Source: a virus
DNA length: 37,199 nt
Direction: 5' to 3' (one strand)
IMG/VR virus record: IMGVR_UViG_3300025108_000162
Span: 1 to 37,199 of that record
The translations under genes and the position numbers were made by a program. Numbering within the stretch: position 1 is the first letter of the stretch; every line of letters begins with the position of its first letter. The notes beneath the pieces were generated by a model, which worked only from the letters and a program-made list of their open reading frames with translations, was not told the origin of the DNA and searched no databases. Positions 3,123 to 10,216 of this stretch are shown piece by piece.

Positions 3123-3295
3123 CAGAAAGGGTTGCTCCAAGACTCGTACTTCTTCATGGTGATGTAACCTTCACGGCACAATTCGTCAGTGAAGATACCC
3201 CATGCCTCACGCTTTGCGACCTTATCTGTTGAGTTGGTTGCCTTCCAATTGTAACGGAATTGCTCTAGTGCTTGGACTTTGGTGATGGTTCGCAT
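3122..3295 (-). CDS. Conserved cyanophage hypothetical protein (57 aa)
   Basis: I start it at the ATG at 3295 (MRTITKVQALEQFRYNWKAT). The open frame extends 28 codons further upstream, but that part crosses the promoter at 3320-3325 and is not conserved-looking. The rest, KREAWGIFTDELCREGYITM, ends with ESWSNPF and matches a small cyanophage family I recognise. All-helical by eye. First gene of the five-gene unit 3295-2172; its stop overlaps the next start. Confidence 0.85.
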   Translation of the reverse strand: MRTITKVQALEQFRYNWKATNSTDKVAKREAWGIFTDELCREGYITMKKYESWSNPF

Positions 3296-3319
3296 GAGGT
3301 GTTTTCCTTTGACTCTCTT

Positions 3320-3325
3320 AATATA
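3320..3325 (-). promoter_or_regulatory. Probable early promoter, -10 box only
   Basis: Minus strand TATATT followed by AAGAGAGTCAAAGGAAAAC, the same leader motif as at the other early promoters. No acceptable -35 hexamer is present 16-18 bases upstream, so this promoter is either weak, activated, or dependent on boundary element copy 3 further upstream. Confidence 0.45.
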
Positions 3326-3358
3326 CACGGTTTTGGTGCCCTGTGCGGGTTTAGTGGA

Positions 3359-3373
3359 CACTTTGACCAAGTG
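3359..3373 (-). repeat. Unit-boundary inverted-repeat element, copy 3
   Basis: Minus strand CACTT GGTCA AAGTG, a perfect five-base stem. It keeps the loop GGTCA of copy 2 while the middle stem pair switches from G-C to C-G, a compensatory change. It begins right after the TAG stop of gene 3379. Confidence 0.6.
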
Positions 3374-3378
3374 GCACA

Positions 3379-3573: not shown

Positions 3574-4811
3574 TAGCAGAATGCGACGGGAGGAATACCT
3601 TCGATGAAGATGGCGTTAACAACGTTTTGCAGTCTTTGTGCAATAGCGTTGCCCATTTTGTAACCTGTTGGCATAGTAACAATGCCCTCAGATTTCTTGT
3701 AGAGATGAAACGCACCAGCAGGGATGCGACCCTCAGCAACATCACGACGGTCATCTTGATGCACACGGATAACACGACCGATGGTCTGTGCCATCTCTAC
3801 GATGGGCAGATTACGCAGCAAGATTGTGTGTGTCAGACCAGGCACATTGATACCCTCAGACAGAATAGAATAGTGAAAGATCACGAACTTCTTAGAGTCA
3901 TCAGCACCCCACGATTGCAGCGTGTTGAAGAACTCTTCGCGTCCTACTTTCTTGTCGTTGATGACAGCACCAAACTTAGAGGTGATGTGCATGACGTCAT
4001 ATCCTTTGCGATAGAAGTAATCAAGGATGTCAGTCTGTCCGAGCATGTTACCCAGAACTTTGCTGGATGGTGCTGCCACCAGAACTTTAGGATTCTGGAA
4101 CACATCGAGTTGCTCAAACATATCCTTGAGATTGTCACCATCAACCTCGTGTGCGTTGTACTTGTTACGAGTGCGATTGGTCTCGAAAGCAACAACTTTA
4201 GGGGGCACGATTGCACCAGCAGCGATCAACTCAGCAGCAGGAACATTGCACAGAGTGCGACCATAAACAGCAGTGTTATTCATGCCACGCGAAAGACTCA
4301 CACCACGACCATTCTTAGGGGTAGCAGTGAAATAGTAACGACGCTTGGCATACTGTGCCGTGGCAAATACTGCCTTGTGGAAGTGACGACCGCAACCATT
4401 GTGTGCCTCATCGAAATAGATAGTGTCAATATTGATGCCACTGTCTACAACACGGTGCAGGGAATGATAGGTGGTGAATATAATGCAGGACTCTTTTGCA
4501 GCACGCGCAGTGTCATTGAAGAGTGCAATCTTCTCAGGTTTTGTGCTGCTGAAGTAGTGAGTCTCTCCACTGTGTGCATGACAGACATGCGTCCAAGTAC
4601 CACTGATATGCTCCATAAACTCCTCACAGAGTTGATTAGCGAGCAAGATACGTGGAGCAACAACAACAATGGTTTGACCTTGTGCAGCACGGTGCATAGC
4701 ATCTGCGATCATGATATAAGTCTTGCCACCACCCGTAGGGATGATCACCTGCCCACAGTCGTTTGCCTGCATGGCATCGAAAGCGCGTTGCTGGTGGGGA
4801 CGGAGTTGCAT
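3573..4811 (-). CDS. SF2 DNA helicase, DEAH box (412 aa)
   Basis: An ATP-dependent superfamily 2 helicase of the ResIII/UvsW-like type. Motifs in order: an N-terminal RPHQQRAFDAM (Q-motif-like), Walker A PTGGGKT at 25-31, DEAH at 134-137 (YFDEAHN), FTATP at 161-165, motif V SEGINVP at 318-324 and motif VI QTIGRVIRVH at 342-351. All catalytic residues are present, so it should be active. T4 UvsW-type helicases unwind branched DNA in recombination-dependent replication, but this protein is shorter than UvsW and I cannot separate a UvsW role from another. It starts 25 bases after a strong composite terminator/promoter (4836-4870), and is followed by the coupled 64-residue gene at 3379. Confidence 0.9.
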   Translation of the reverse strand: MQLRPHQQRAFDAMQANDCGQVIIPTGGGKTYIMIADAMHRAAQGQTIVVVAPRILLANQLCEEFMEHISGTWTHVCHAHSGETHYFSSTKPEKIALFNDTARAAKESCIIFTTYHSLHRVVDSGINIDTIYFDEAHNGCGRHFHKAVFATAQYAKRRYYFTATPKNGRGVSLSRGMNNTAVYGRTLCNVPAAELIAAGAIVPPKVVAFETNRTRNKYNAHEVDGDNLKDMFEQLDVFQNPKVLVAAPSSKVLGNMLGQTDILDYFYRKGYDVMHITSKFGAVINDKKVGREEFFNTLQSWGADDSKKFVIFHYSILSEGINVPGLTHTILLRNLPIVEMAQTIGRVIRVHQDDRRDVAEGRIPAGAFHLYKKSEGIVTMPTGYKMGNAIAQRLQNVVNAIFIEGIPPVAFC

Positions 4812-4835
4812 CGAATGCGTTTCTTTGACTCTTAT

Positions 4836-4864
4836 AGTATTGCATAAAAAAAGACCCCTGTCAA
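4836..4864 (-). promoter_or_regulatory. Early promoter with -35 box in a terminator loop
   Basis: Minus strand TTGACA (4864-4859, perfect consensus), exactly 17 bases, AATACT (4841-4836), preceded by TGC. The TTGACA is the complete six-base loop of the terminator at 4853-4870. The leader after it is ATAAGAGTCAAAGAAACGC, ending at the helicase ATG. Confidence 0.8.
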
Positions 4865-4870
4865 GGGGTC
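4846..4870 (-). terminator. Rho-independent terminator
   Basis: Minus strand GACCCC-TTGACA-GGGGTC followed by seven T. Six-base perfect stem. It ends the unit containing the methyltransferase and DGQHR-like genes and overlaps the helicase promoter. Confidence 0.9.
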
Positions 4871-4875
4871 CCGAC

Positions 4876-4889
4876 CAGTCCAGCGACTG
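4876..4889 (-). repeat. Unit-boundary inverted-repeat element, copy 5
   Basis: Minus strand CAGTC-CGCTG-like core reading CAGTCGCTGGACTG, a perfect five-base stem (CAGTC/GACTG) around a four-base loop, preceded by GTGA. It lies 22 bases after the stop of gene 4911 and just before the terminator. Confidence 0.6.
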
Positions 4890-4910
4890 TCACATACTAT
4901 ATCTTTACAC

Positions 4911-6029: not shown

Positions 6030-6750
6030 AGAACAAAGAGGTAAGACCTGCATTTGTTCTTTCATTAGTAATACTAACATATTTTTCGTCAATGTCAAAC
6101 CCAATCCATTTTCTGTTACATTCTGTCGCAACCGTTGCGGTTGTACCTGATCCCATAAAGGGATCCAGAACGGTGTCACCAACCTTAGTAGAAAGTGCAA
6201 TGCAATTCTTTACAAGTTGTGGCGGAAATGGTGCTGGGTGTTGCTTTTGACGATCGGGTGGAATAACCCATACTTCACCCCTAAATTCAGGGGATACAGC
6301 ATCACGAAACACTTTTGGTTTCTTTTTACAGAACCAATAAATGTGTTCAGTACAAGGTACTAAAACATCATTACGAATGTTAGGAGAGTTTCTCCTATCC
6401 CAGATGATCAGTTGATATAACTGAACATCACTATGTATAATGAAATCAGTAGGTAAATAGCACCGATTCTTAAATCTTCTAGGTTTGTGATTGAAGAAGA
6501 TAGAACCATCGGGTTTAATAATACGATGACATTGGTTGAGAAACTCTACCATCCATGCCTGATACTGATCCTCAGGCATATCGTCACCATAAGTGTTGTA
6601 ATCGATCTGAAACTTACCCCAGATCTGATTACCTTGCTTCACCTTACCTAACAATCCCTTCTTGTTATATGGAGGGGATGTGACAATACAATCGATGGAA
6701 TTATCTTCCATCTCTTTCATGCCTTCGATGCAATCTTTATTGATAATCAT
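6028..6750 (-). CDS. DNA methyltransferase, beta class, TSPPY type (240 aa)
   Basis: Transfers a methyl group from SAM to the exocyclic amino group of adenine (N6) or cytosine (N4) in DNA. The catalytic motif TSPPYN is at residues 24-29 and the SAM-binding motif DPFMGSGTT at 196-204; catalytic-before-SAM order defines the beta class. The family-typical segment with VLVPCTEHIYWFCKK and a C-terminal WIGFDIDEKYVSIT are also present. TSPPY does not by itself decide between N4-cytosine and N6-adenine. Length is normal for a minimal enzyme without a separate target domain. The start overlaps the stop of the upstream putative nuclease gene as ATGA, so the two are translationally coupled. Confidence 0.92.
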   Translation of the reverse strand: MIINKDCIEGMKEMEDNSIDCIVTSPPYNKKGLLGKVKQGNQIWGKFQIDYNTYGDDMPEDQYQAWMVEFLNQCHRIIKPDGSIFFNHKPRRFKNRCYLPTDFIIHSDVQLYQLIIWDRRNSPNIRNDVLVPCTEHIYWFCKKKPKVFRDAVSPEFRGEVWVIPPDRQKQHPAPFPPQLVKNCIALSTKVGDTVLDPFMGSGTTATVATECNRKWIGFDIDEKYVSITNERTNAGLTSLF

Positions 6751-7373
6751 ACAAACAGGTTACGGTGAATGTGCCACAGAACATTGTAGCGATTGCCCAG
6801 TTTCTTTTTACCTTCACGCTGAAAGTGGAAGTAACTCTTACCATCAGCATTTTTCAGGTGAATACCACCACGAAGAAAGACCCATTGAGCATCTTTAATC
6901 TTATCACAAATCTCCTGATAGGTCAACTCCAACTCTTCATTTGTCTTTGTATTTTTAATTACAACTGACGTGATGTCGAACCCATTGCGAATAATAAGAT
7001 CGACAACCTCTGCCTTGTTTGTATTAAGGAACTCTTTGAAAGCATCAACCTGTACTGTATCAATCTGTTTGATAGTACGACGATCTTTGCCGTTGTAGTT
7101 ATAACCTACACTACCACAGAAATGTGCAATGAACTCAGCAGCATCACCACTGATGTTCAACATCTTGATGAAATGTTTCTGTGTTGTGAGGTGAACCTGT
7201 GTAGAAGATCCTGACATGTTCTTGATGCTCTTATTGTTGACACCATCAGTGCCATCAATTTTAGTGCGTGAACCTCCAACTTGTGTCAGACCGTGAGCAT
7301 CACAAACTTCCTTCTCTTTAATAGTAGAGTATTCTTCGCGGGTTTTGAATCCTTGTTCAGCGGTGAGAGGCAT
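6747..7373 (-). CDS. Putative endonuclease-like partner of the methyltransferase (208 aa)
   Basis: I start it at the ATG at 7373 (MPLTAEQGFKTREEYSTIKE); the longer frame to 7415 would begin upstream of its own promoter's -10 box. Residues 38-52, KIDGTDGVNNKSIKN, give a D-G...S-x-K arrangement reminiscent of the D...(E/S/Q)xK core of PD-(D/E)xK nucleases, followed by SGSSTQVHLTTQKHF. A second half contains GFDITSVVIKNTKT and LRGGIHLKNADGKSYFHFQR. Tight ATGA coupling to a DNA methyltransferase is the arrangement of type II restriction-modification genes. I do not recognise a named family; nuclease activity is an inference from motif and context. Other possibilities are a specificity or anti-restriction factor. 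Confidence 0.45.
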   Translation of the reverse strand: MPLTAEQGFKTREEYSTIKEKEVCDAHGLTQVGGSRTKIDGTDGVNNKSIKNMSGSSTQVHLTTQKHFIKMLNISGDAAEFIAHFCGSVGYNYNGKDRRTIKQIDTVQVDAFKEFLNTNKAEVVDLIIRNGFDITSVVIKNTKTNEELELTYQEICDKIKDAQWVFLRGGIHLKNADGKSYFHFQREGKKKLGNRYNVLWHIHRNLFV

Positions 7374-7394
7374 TGCTTTGTTTGACCTGTATAC

Positions 7395-7423
7395 AGTATT
7401 GCATGAAAAAAGCACCCCGTCAA
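7395..7423 (-). promoter_or_regulatory. Early promoter with -35 box in a terminator loop
   Basis: Minus strand TTGACG (7423-7418), exactly 17 bases, AATACT (7400-7395), preceded by TGC. The -35 box is the full loop of the terminator at 7411-7430. The leader GTATACAGGTCAAACAAAGC runs into the ATG at 7373. Confidence 0.75.
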
Positions 7424-7430
7424 GGGTGCT
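7405..7430 (-). terminator. Rho-independent terminator
   Basis: Minus strand AGCACCC-TTGACG-GGGTGCT, a perfect seven-base stem, followed by TTTTT. It ends the unit 9633-7449 and carries the promoter of the next unit. Confidence 0.9.
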
Positions 7431-7434
7431 GCTC

Positions 7435-7448
7435 CAGTTCGGTGACTG
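7435..7448 (-). repeat. Unit-boundary inverted-repeat element, copy 6
   Basis: Minus strand CAGTCACCGAACTG: CAGT/ACTG pair, the fifth pair is C-A. The GTGA that precedes it includes the TGA stop of gene 7449, so the element begins inside the stop codon. Confidence 0.5.
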
Positions 7449-7610
7449 TCACGCGGGGAGGACATCCCAATTTACATTTTCTGGCACAAGATTGTCGATT
7501 ACATATTCAACATTGTGCATTCCATAGACTATAACTTCTTGGGTTGCAAAAAATCCTGGTTTCTTCTCCTTCTTCCAGAGAATACGCCAACGATCATAAT
7601 CTTTTTTCAT
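7449..7610 (-). CDS. Small hypothetical protein (53 aa)
   Basis: Begins MKKDYDRWRILWKKEKKPGF, very basic and Trp-rich, and continues FATQEVIVYGMHNVEYVIDN. No domain recognised. Its start overlaps the previous stop as ATGA and its own stop merges with boundary element copy 6. It is the last gene of the ten-gene unit starting at 9633. Confidence 0.65.
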   Translation of the reverse strand: MKKDYDRWRILWKKEKKPGFFATQEVIVYGMHNVEYVIDNLVPENVNWDVLPA

Positions 7611-8089: not shown

Positions 8090-8106
8090 TATTAGTATTG
8101 CATAGA

Positions 8107-8733
8107 TTAGGGAGTTTGGGGAGAACCTTGTGTAGGTTCTTGAGGTGTCACAAGGAAGTTAGCAGAAAATGTAATCCTTTCTTCATCATTACGATTAGGA
8201 CACACATAGTGAGGATAGAATGATGGGAAGATCATAATATCACCTTGATTCGCATTAGGAACAATTGTATTTGCACTGGGAATAGTGAACAACTGCTTTA
8301 ATCCTGATGTTTTGTATTTAGAATCCTCATTATTATAGAACCTAAAAACAGTATCGTCAAATTCTCTAAAGAAATAAACCATACTTAAGTTACAATTAGG
8401 CACAGAGTGATCGTGATACTCTTGAAACCCACCTTTTGGATACTTATTAACCCATGCCTCTTTAGGTATTAACGACACATCAACAACTGGAGACATTTCA
8501 TCCATGAACTCATCAATCTGCTCACTGATTAGTGACAGAAACTCTGTCCAAGGAGCAGTGGTGTTTCTTGGATTATTGAATGAACTTTTTACAGTACAGT
8601 TCCACTCATTTGGTTCTCTAAAGTTATCCTCAGTTGATAAGAACTCAGCAAACAAATCTTTGATAGATGTTTGCTTCTCATCAGAAACTGTCCCACGGTA
8701 ATACCACATAGGACAGAACATTTCAATAGTCAT
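8107..8733 (-). CDS. 2OG-Fe(II) oxygenase, TIGR02466-like (208 aa)
   Basis: A probable 2-oxoglutarate/Fe(II)-dependent dioxygenase. Metal ligands are visible in the family-typical places: H-D-H in GFQEYHDHSVPNCNLSMVYF, the distal His in FPSFYPHYVCPN, and the 2OG-binding Arg in EERITFSANFLV. The distal arrangement (PHxVxPN...ERITFSxNF) matches the TIGR02466 group common in cyanophages. Substrate is unknown; such enzymes hydroxylate amino-acid side chains, nucleobases or small molecules. It lies in an early operon and ATGA-overlaps the preceding gene at 8730, unlike the three other oxygenases here, which sit with late or tRNA genes and are more similar to prolyl-hydroxylase-type enzymes. Confidence 0.8.
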   Translation of the reverse strand: MTIEMFCPMWYYRGTVSDEKQTSIKDLFAEFLSTEDNFREPNEWNCTVKSSFNNPRNTTAPWTEFLSLISEQIDEFMDEMSPVVDVSLIPKEAWVNKYPKGGFQEYHDHSVPNCNLSMVYFFREFDDTVFRFYNNEDSKYKTSGLKQLFTIPSANTIVPNANQGDIMIFPSFYPHYVCPNRNDEERITFSANFLVTPQEPTQGSPQTP

Positions 8734-9658: not shown

Positions 9659-9687
9659 AATATAGCATAAAAAAAGAGGGGTCGCAA
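9659..9687 (-). promoter_or_regulatory. Early promoter with -35 box in a terminator loop
   Basis: Minus strand TTGCGA (9687-9682), exactly 17 bases, TATATT (9664-9659), preceded by TGC. The -35 box is the full loop of the terminator at 9675-9694. The -35 match to consensus is weaker than at 4859 and 7418, the -10 match is better. Confidence 0.7.
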
Positions 9688-9694
9688 CCCCTCT
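9668..9694 (-). terminator. Rho-independent terminator
   Basis: Minus strand AGAGGGG-TTGCGA-CCCCTCT, a perfect seven-base stem, followed by a run of T. It closes the large late transcription unit that ends with gene 9719. Confidence 0.9.
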
Positions 9695-9698
9695 GTGA

Positions 9699-9713
9699 CA
9701 CTTGTTTCAACTG
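9699..9713 (-). repeat. Unit-boundary inverted-repeat element, copy 4
   Basis: Minus strand CAGTT GAAAC AAGTG with one mismatched stem pair, preceded by GTGTGC and followed by TCACAG. It begins directly after the TAG stop of gene 9719. Confidence 0.5.
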
Positions 9714-9718
9714 GCACA

Positions 9719-10216
9719 CTAAACATAGTTAAAGTTAATTACCATCCGATATTCTGAGTCAGTTGTAGTTGTTCCCGTGTGCTTTGTGCTATTAGGAAAT
9801 GTTACCAATCTGTTTGCTACTGATTCAACTTTAGTGCCATCTTCAAGCAGTGTGTAACCATTACAGGTGTTCATATAAAGCACAGATGTCTTTAGATATG
9901 GACGATCATCAGCATCTAAAACGTCATTATGAAACCCATGCTCAATAATATTATCTACACCAACTAAAAAGTTTGCCTTTATCTTTAACAATGCACATGG
10001 TTGTAGTTTTTGTAGTACAGGATATAACAACTCAACACTATTATCAACTGGAGCATGTCGGTCATAAAACATATGAACCATTTGCACATTTCTATTGTGA
10101 TTGTTGGTAGTATCATCAACAATCTTAGAGACAGTCCAAGGGAAGAATGAACCTAGCATGGATTGTTTAATATGCCCAAACTCTGATGGAGTTAAGAACT
10201 CATCAATTATTTCCAT
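9719..10216 (-). CDS. 2OG-Fe(II) oxygenase (165 aa)
   Basis: Begins MEIIDEFLTPSEFGHIKQSM. The iron ligands are H-N-D in EHGFHNDVLD and the His in NSTKHTGTTTT; the 2OG-binding Arg is in EYRMVINFNYV. The segment NTCNGYTLLEDGTKVESVAN is closely mirrored in the oxygenase at 26848 (NTCDGYTLFEDGTKVDSVAN), so the two are paralogues. Substrate unknown. The gene follows the U32-like/methyltransferase fusion with a single-base overlap, and is the last gene before the terminator at 9675. Confidence 0.85.
   Translation of the reverse strand: MEIIDEFLTPSEFGHIKQSMLGSFFPWTVSKIVDDTTNNHNRNVQMVHMFYDRHAPVDNSVELLYPVLQKLQPCALLKIKANFLVGVDNIIEHGFHNDVLDADDRPYLKTSVLYMNTCNGYTLLEDGTKVESVANRLVTFPNSTKHTGTTTTDSEYRMVINFNYV

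Follow-up and report, generated by a model that had tools for sequence, protein, structure and literature searches.

How a virus could close one gene and open the next within a few dozen bases is the question raised by three sites in a 37,199-nucleotide stretch of viral DNA (IMG/VR record IMGVR_UViG_3300025108_000162; hereafter, the window). An earlier note on this DNA had proposed that at each site the loop of a terminator hairpin is also the -35 hexamer of the following promoter. The window is ~91% identical to S-RIM12/Syn33 (Kyanoviridae), and we compared it with 14 kyanovirus genomes and with IMG/VR contigs. The anatomy, spacing, conservation, stem turnover, and exchange boundaries described below were obtained by sequence comparison. 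The sites are very likely compact composite cassettes of the early region of kyanoviruses (T4-like cyanophages), in which a promoter made of a dyad and a -10 element can hold a nested terminator and serve as an exchange point. If so, these viruses, which kill ocean cyanobacteria, fold the stop signal of one gene within the start signal of the next, in ~60 bases.

The three devices lie on the minus strand, as do all plausible genes in the region that contains them. Each runs from a strong hairpin through a T-tract and ATGC into a -10 element, and each sits in a short gap between a stop codon and an ATG (Table 1). A pattern scan that combined loop hexamer, T-tract, ATGC, and -10, with shuffled sequences as controls, recovered exactly these three sites in the window at 0 mismatches; at 3 or fewer mismatches it found 4 sites against 0.03 expected from the shuffles, which rules out a chance match. 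The devices were also the top three among the terminator-like sites listed for the first 20 kb. As the earlier note had claimed, each hairpin presents a -35-like hexamer, and the -10 follows after a spacer of exactly 17 nt and is preceded by TGC in 3/3 devices. The same note had described the loop as six bases long. The hexamers were as stated, but the loop of the folded RNA has four bases (UGAC or UGCG), because the first and last bases of the -35 hexamer pair with each other. Folded in isolation, the hairpins of devices 1, 2, and 3 gave -13.8, -13.1, and -13.4 kcal/mol, respectively. A search for known RNA families found none at the devices, returning only tRNAs and one subthreshold match elsewhere. 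The longest reading of the open reading frame at 6747-7415 begins within device 2 (GTG at 7415); the ATG at 7373, 3' of the promoter, is likely its true start.

Table 1. Positions of the devices, early promoters, and associated elements (window coordinates unless another sequence is named)
Feature	Position	Strand	Details
Device 1	4836-4872	minus	Stop 4911, ATG 4811
Device 1 dyad	4872-4893	minus	GTGACAGTC-gctg-GACTGGTCG; proposed regulator-binding site of early promoter
Device 1 putative intrinsic-terminator hairpin	4851-4872	minus	T-tract next, about 4845-4852
Device 1 -35	4859-4864	minus	TTGACA, in hairpin loop
Device 1 -10	4836-4841	minus	AATACT after TGC; predicted start about 4828-4831; helicase ATG 4811
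Device 2	7395-7430	minus	Stop 7449, ATG 7373
Device 2 dyad	7431-7452	minus	GTGACAGTC-accg-AACTGGAGC
Device 2 putative intrinsic-terminator hairpin	7411-7430	minus	Loop hexamer TTGACG, -35 at 7418-7423
Device 2 -10	7395-7400	minus	AATACT after TGC; next ATG 7373
Device 3	9659-9694	minus	Stop 9719, ATG 9633
Device 3 dyad	9695-9717	minus	GTGCCAGTT-gaaac-AAGTGTCAC
Device 3 putative intrinsic-terminator hairpin	9675-9694	minus	Loop hexamer TTGCGA, -35 at 9682-9687
Device 3 -10	9659-9664	minus	TATATT after TGC; next ATG 9633
Early promoter without terminator	8094-8151	minus	Dyad 8130-8151; -35 position TCCCCA; -10 AATACT 8094-8099
Early promoter without terminator	3320-3377	minus	Dyad 3355-3377; -10 TATATT 3320-3325
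Early promoter without terminator	2108-2166	minus	Dyad 2144-2166; -10 TATTAT 2108-2113
Early promoter without terminator	1587-1645	minus	Dyad 1623-1645; -35 TTGATT; -10 AATACT 1587-1592
Shared-leader copies	1558-1594, 2079-2115, 3291-3327, 4807-4843		
GCACC-N4-GGTGC hairpin examples	1587-1610; upstream of helicase in L395, L405, L414, L416		
T-tract-into-ATAAATA examples	Syn33 113263 (L267); S-SSM5 89745 (L294)		

The positions given in the earlier note located the devices and omitted their largest conserved part, a dyad directly upstream of each. This constant element is an imperfect dyad of 22 to 23 bp, GTG[AC]CA[GC]T-N6-A[GC]TG[GT]CAC, with half-site GTG[AC]CA[GC]T, and precedes the -10 by about 30 nt. 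The distance from the end of the dyad to a -10-like hexamer peaked at 30 nt (96 sites, versus about 12 at other distances), and an excess at 29 to 32 nt over other dyad/-10 spacings was present in 14/14 genomes as well as in the window. Seven dyad promoters occupy the minus strand of the window, and a terminator falls within the dyad/-10 gap in only three of them, those of devices 1, 2, and 3. The stable unit is therefore the early promoter, with the terminator as an optional insert. Nor is the loop the core of the device: four of the seven early promoters have no terminator, and in most promoters that lack a T-tract the -35 is poor.

Several early promoters have in common a leader, ATAAGAGTCAAAGRAAC, that reaches the next ATG and forms a repeat family of 37 to 42 nt. 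In some terminator-less early promoters, GCACC-N4-GGTGC forms a hairpin directly next to the -10; the TGC that extends the -10 comes from the 3' arm of this hairpin, and the -35 position reads CCCCA. Inverted repeats in the spacer that abut the -10 were found in 16/306 terminator-less promoters, near the level at other shifts. A dyad-like site at 103-171 on the minus strand has a TACAAT -10 at about 39 to 40 nt rather than 30 nt, and Syn33 shows a resembling layout at 44640 and 45707.

The hexamer in the terminator loop could be a promoter element, or TTGAC could simply be a loop that these phages prefer in their terminators, with its likeness to a -35 a by-product of fixed geometry (a 6-bp arm, a 7-nt T-tract, and ATGC). 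The common form varies very little in its geometry, and UGCG is a UNCG-type tetraloop; we count both in favor of such a preference. Ordinary short hairpins hold the loop and the -35 at equally constant distances from the -10, so constant spacing alone cannot separate a promoter constraint from a hairpin constraint. We therefore turn to which loops accompany a -10. Among 210 terminators, chosen independently of loop or -10, TTG[AC] lay in or beside the loop in 51/126 terminators with a -10 versus 7/84 without one (odds ratio, 7.5; p=1e-7). The association was also found in the 14 genomes alone, and the usual loop of terminators without a -10 is TTCG. Given that TTG[AC] loops track a downstream -10, we conclude that the hexamer in the loop belongs to the promoter and is not a terminator habit, and we rejected TTGAC as a generic terminator loop. 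When TTGAC or TTGC[AG] occurred 10 to 25 nt upstream of a -10, it did so at exactly 17 nt in 34 of 45 cases. Individual promoters also speak against a mere loop preference. At the helicase promoter of relatives, L409, L411, and L413 retain TTGACA at 17 nt without a T-tract, and L399 and L447-L449 have a hairpin that lacks a T-tract and carries TTGAC in its 5' arm, 17 to 18 nt from the -10. The TTGC of L008 and L109 is not part of the terminal loop but is still at 17 nt. We consider such a preference quite improbable as the explanation of the hexamer, and the earlier proposal that the hexamer serves as a -35 stands.

A good -35 (at least 5/6) was present in 24/59 early promoters with a T-tract versus 47/306 without one (p=4e-5); the former class was defined by its T-tract, the hairpin being no criterion. 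TTG occupied the -35 position in only about 44% of the T-tract early promoters, which implies that a -35 in the loop is common and not essential. Judged by these comparisons, the -35 is real but optional, and most early promoters would manage without a good one.

The conservation of loop and spacing that had been predicted for related phages was borne out, as related phages show both at one and the same gene although their stems differ. The orthologous helicase promoter may have or lack a terminator, and the stems are unrelated, while its dyad and -10 persist; the stems of relatives change there in a compensatory manner, with TTGAC, dyad, and -10 kept. The 59 distinct hairpins of the nested form, a set that includes contigs fetched by pattern, had 46 different sequences in the 5' arm, matched in each case by the 3' arm. 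The earlier note had read the differing stems of the three devices as a sign that they were not copied as a block. That argument is not supported, because devices 1 and 2 have a common backbone that recombines between phages. To call the devices three independent copies was likewise too strong: devices 1 and 2 are recognizable copies of one another (77% identity over 61 nt), and their differences lie mostly in the stem. Given this identity, recombining cassettes fit better than three independent inventions.

When the window was aligned with Syn33, homology blocks ended at 9719/9694, 7392, and 4844, each within one of the three devices or next to it (block ends at the devices are 9694/9719, 7392/7440, and 4844/4894). 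Syn33 had no match of at least 60 nt to the genes that separate devices 2 and 1. Across 26 sequences, 74 of 241 block ends fell within early promoters versus 11.3 expected, a 6.6-fold enrichment compared to 3.5-fold for other gene junctions. Counted by feature, 52 of 161 early promoters were hit at least once versus 89 of 541 other junctions (p=3e-5), although such p-values are optimistic because the relatives are not independent of each other. This correlation suggests that early-promoter cassettes tend to be preferred exchange boundaries between related phages.

The dyad itself could act as DNA or as RNA. Acting as RNA, it would be a hairpin at the 3' end of the preceding mRNA, serving in protection or processing, and it can form a weak to moderate fold in the transcript and lies immediately next to the terminator. 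Across 365 distinct promoters, however, its two variable half-site positions (4 and 7) vary independently between the arms, with Watson-Crick pairing at these positions below expectation (40% versus 44 to 45%), and the dyad is locked about 30 nt from the -10 whether the terminator is present or absent. The missing covariation led us to reject an RNA stem, and an RNA hairpin in place of an operator is highly unlikely; because the arms do not covary, we instead regard them as half-sites for a dimeric protein. The exact dyad pattern occurred at 28 sites in 18 phage genomes, where the reversed-pattern control gave 0. In 201 Cyanobiaceae genomes it occurred at 4 sites versus 3 for the reversed control, which disfavors a host regulator. 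The lack of arm covariation and this near-absence from host genomes together suggest that the dyad probably serves as an operator, bound by a phage-encoded protein that is most likely a dimeric activator. A phage-encoded regulator would thus be predicted from the phage specificity of the dyad.

A comparison is offered by the promoter-early stem-loops (PeSLs), whose primary descriptions are reportedly those of Arbiol 2010 (10.1093/gbe/evq006) and Comeau 2014 (10.1093/gbe/evu129). These composite promoter-terminator cassettes of T4-type phages are implicated in gene shuffling, and S-PM2 is reported to be without a high PeSL density (PMC4503421). The kyanovirus devices resemble PeSLs in that a terminator hairpin precedes a sigma70-like promoter of the same direction in one intergenic gap, in that the carrier is a T4-like myovirus, and in that they coincide with modular gene-exchange sites, the last likeness being correlational. 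The layouts differ. In the clear PeSL cases of RB49 and T4, hairpin and -35 are separate and adjacent, the loops are TTCG or GAAA type, and the -35 starts 15 to 17 or 29 to 32 nt after the hairpin, whereas the kyanovirus -35 is the loop. Within RB49 (L566-L574), the distances from hairpin to next -35 form two groups, 15 to 17 and 30 to 32 nt. A search of RB49 and T4 for the dyad found none within 1 mismatch. The canonical PeSL layout was accordingly set aside for the kyanovirus devices, and since their -35 lies in the hairpin loop, we class them as a PeSL-like variant and not as PeSL members. As far as sequence can tell, the kyanovirus form is a collapsed, overlapping, shorter, and dyad-linked variant of the PeSL kind, and would extend terminator/promoter cassettes to kyanoviruses in overlapping form.

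Doron et al. 2016 (ISME J) reportedly described a novel early-gene control element in Syn9 that is said to be abundant in T4-like cyanophages. The dyad promoter occurs in the Syn9 genome and is probably the same element; our label "early" would follow from the position of the promoters in the early region and from the element reported for Syn9. We know of no nested terminator described for the Syn9 element. The present comparison would thus supply the base-level anatomy of the early regulatory unit in the most studied ocean cyanophages, namely, a dyad, an optional nested terminator, and an extended -10. The host-like sigma70 promoters of cyanomyoviruses have -35 and -10 hexamers at a 16- to 18-nt spacing, and a dyad or an overlapping terminator is absent from their descriptions in the available text of these sources (PMC2984593, PMC3037559). 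Bacterial tandem terminators and promoters likewise end one unit and start the next, but their signals are ordinarily adjacent, whereas in kyanoviruses some bases belong to both signals, the -35 being part of the loop and the T-tract part of the spacer. The T4 middle promoter of the MotA type has a MotA box, TGCTT, near -30 and goes with a motA gene. The kyanovirus -35 region is instead a consensus TTGAC or weak. Cyanomyoviruses are reported to be without motA and asiA (PMC2984593). A search of the available literature for designs with a -35 in a terminator loop found no precedent, which is weak evidence of absence.

We propose that a cassette, read 5' to 3' along the minus strand, would consist of the upstream stop codon, the dyad operator, a G+C-rich hairpin with its T-tract, the extended -10, a short leader, and the ATG. 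We infer termination, initiation, and the dyad protein with its role as follows. In the nascent RNA, the hairpin and T-tract would end the upstream transcript. The same stretch in DNA would be a promoter, its loop often providing a good -35 (TTGAC) at 17 nt, and a phage activator on the dyad would assist initiation of the next transcript. A single unit of ~60 bp that closes one gene and opens the next, as first suggested in the earlier note, appears to be supported by this anatomy, and the same compact stretch may double as an exchange point between phages.

Neighboring units might, in addition, be coupled. RNA polymerase usually stays on the DNA after intrinsic termination and can reinitiate at nearby promoters (PMC6978380, PMC6978322), and in the devices the release point falls within the -35/-10 spacer. 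Both observations favor a hand-off, in which the terminator releases polymerase onto the next promoter and reinitiation links the outputs of neighbors; this would be compatible with a composite cassette, as an added function. Of the seven early promoters in the window, however, four lack the terminator that such a hand-off would need, reinitiation requires a retained or new sigma factor, and most restarts in one of the two studies were antisense, so that we regard a hand-off as unlikely. That the nesting itself is functional, with polymerase terminated in the T-tract, captured with the help of the dyad activator, and reinitiating so that early transcription walks unit by unit, seems distinctly unlikely. 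Whether a terminating polymerase passes to the next promoter is a question for which the overlap provides a natural system. The earlier note had suggested that neighboring units might be coupled by interference, with the -35 blocked by a hairpin extruded from the non-template strand or by read-through from upstream. The -35 does lie within an inverted repeat, but with an arm of 6 to 8 bp and a small loop, stable extrusion from duplex DNA is unlikely, and read-through is expected to be low with such hairpins. Moreover, since many sister promoters have no good -35, its obstruction would not act as a switch for the unit, which makes a block by strand folding unlikely. Interference of either kind is, in our view, very improbable, and we retain the composite cassette as the preferred reading.

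Two further classes of overlap were observed. Some terminators enter consensus TTGACA-16/17-TATAAT promoters without a dyad; in these the loop is CTTGA, and the final CA of the -35 lies in the stem. In the 14 genomes, the late-promoter core ATAAATA occurred within 28 nt after 26 of 229 terminators, versus 0.5% of random 30-nt stretches (examples in Table 1). Taken together with the nested form, these classes imply that the phages generally tend to let stop and start signals overlap. Separately, a contig binned as archaeal (Euryarchaeota archaeon TMED129; L504; NHGE01000071.1) encodes a PsbA that shares 93% identity with that of cyanophages, and is probably a mis-binned cyanophage contig.
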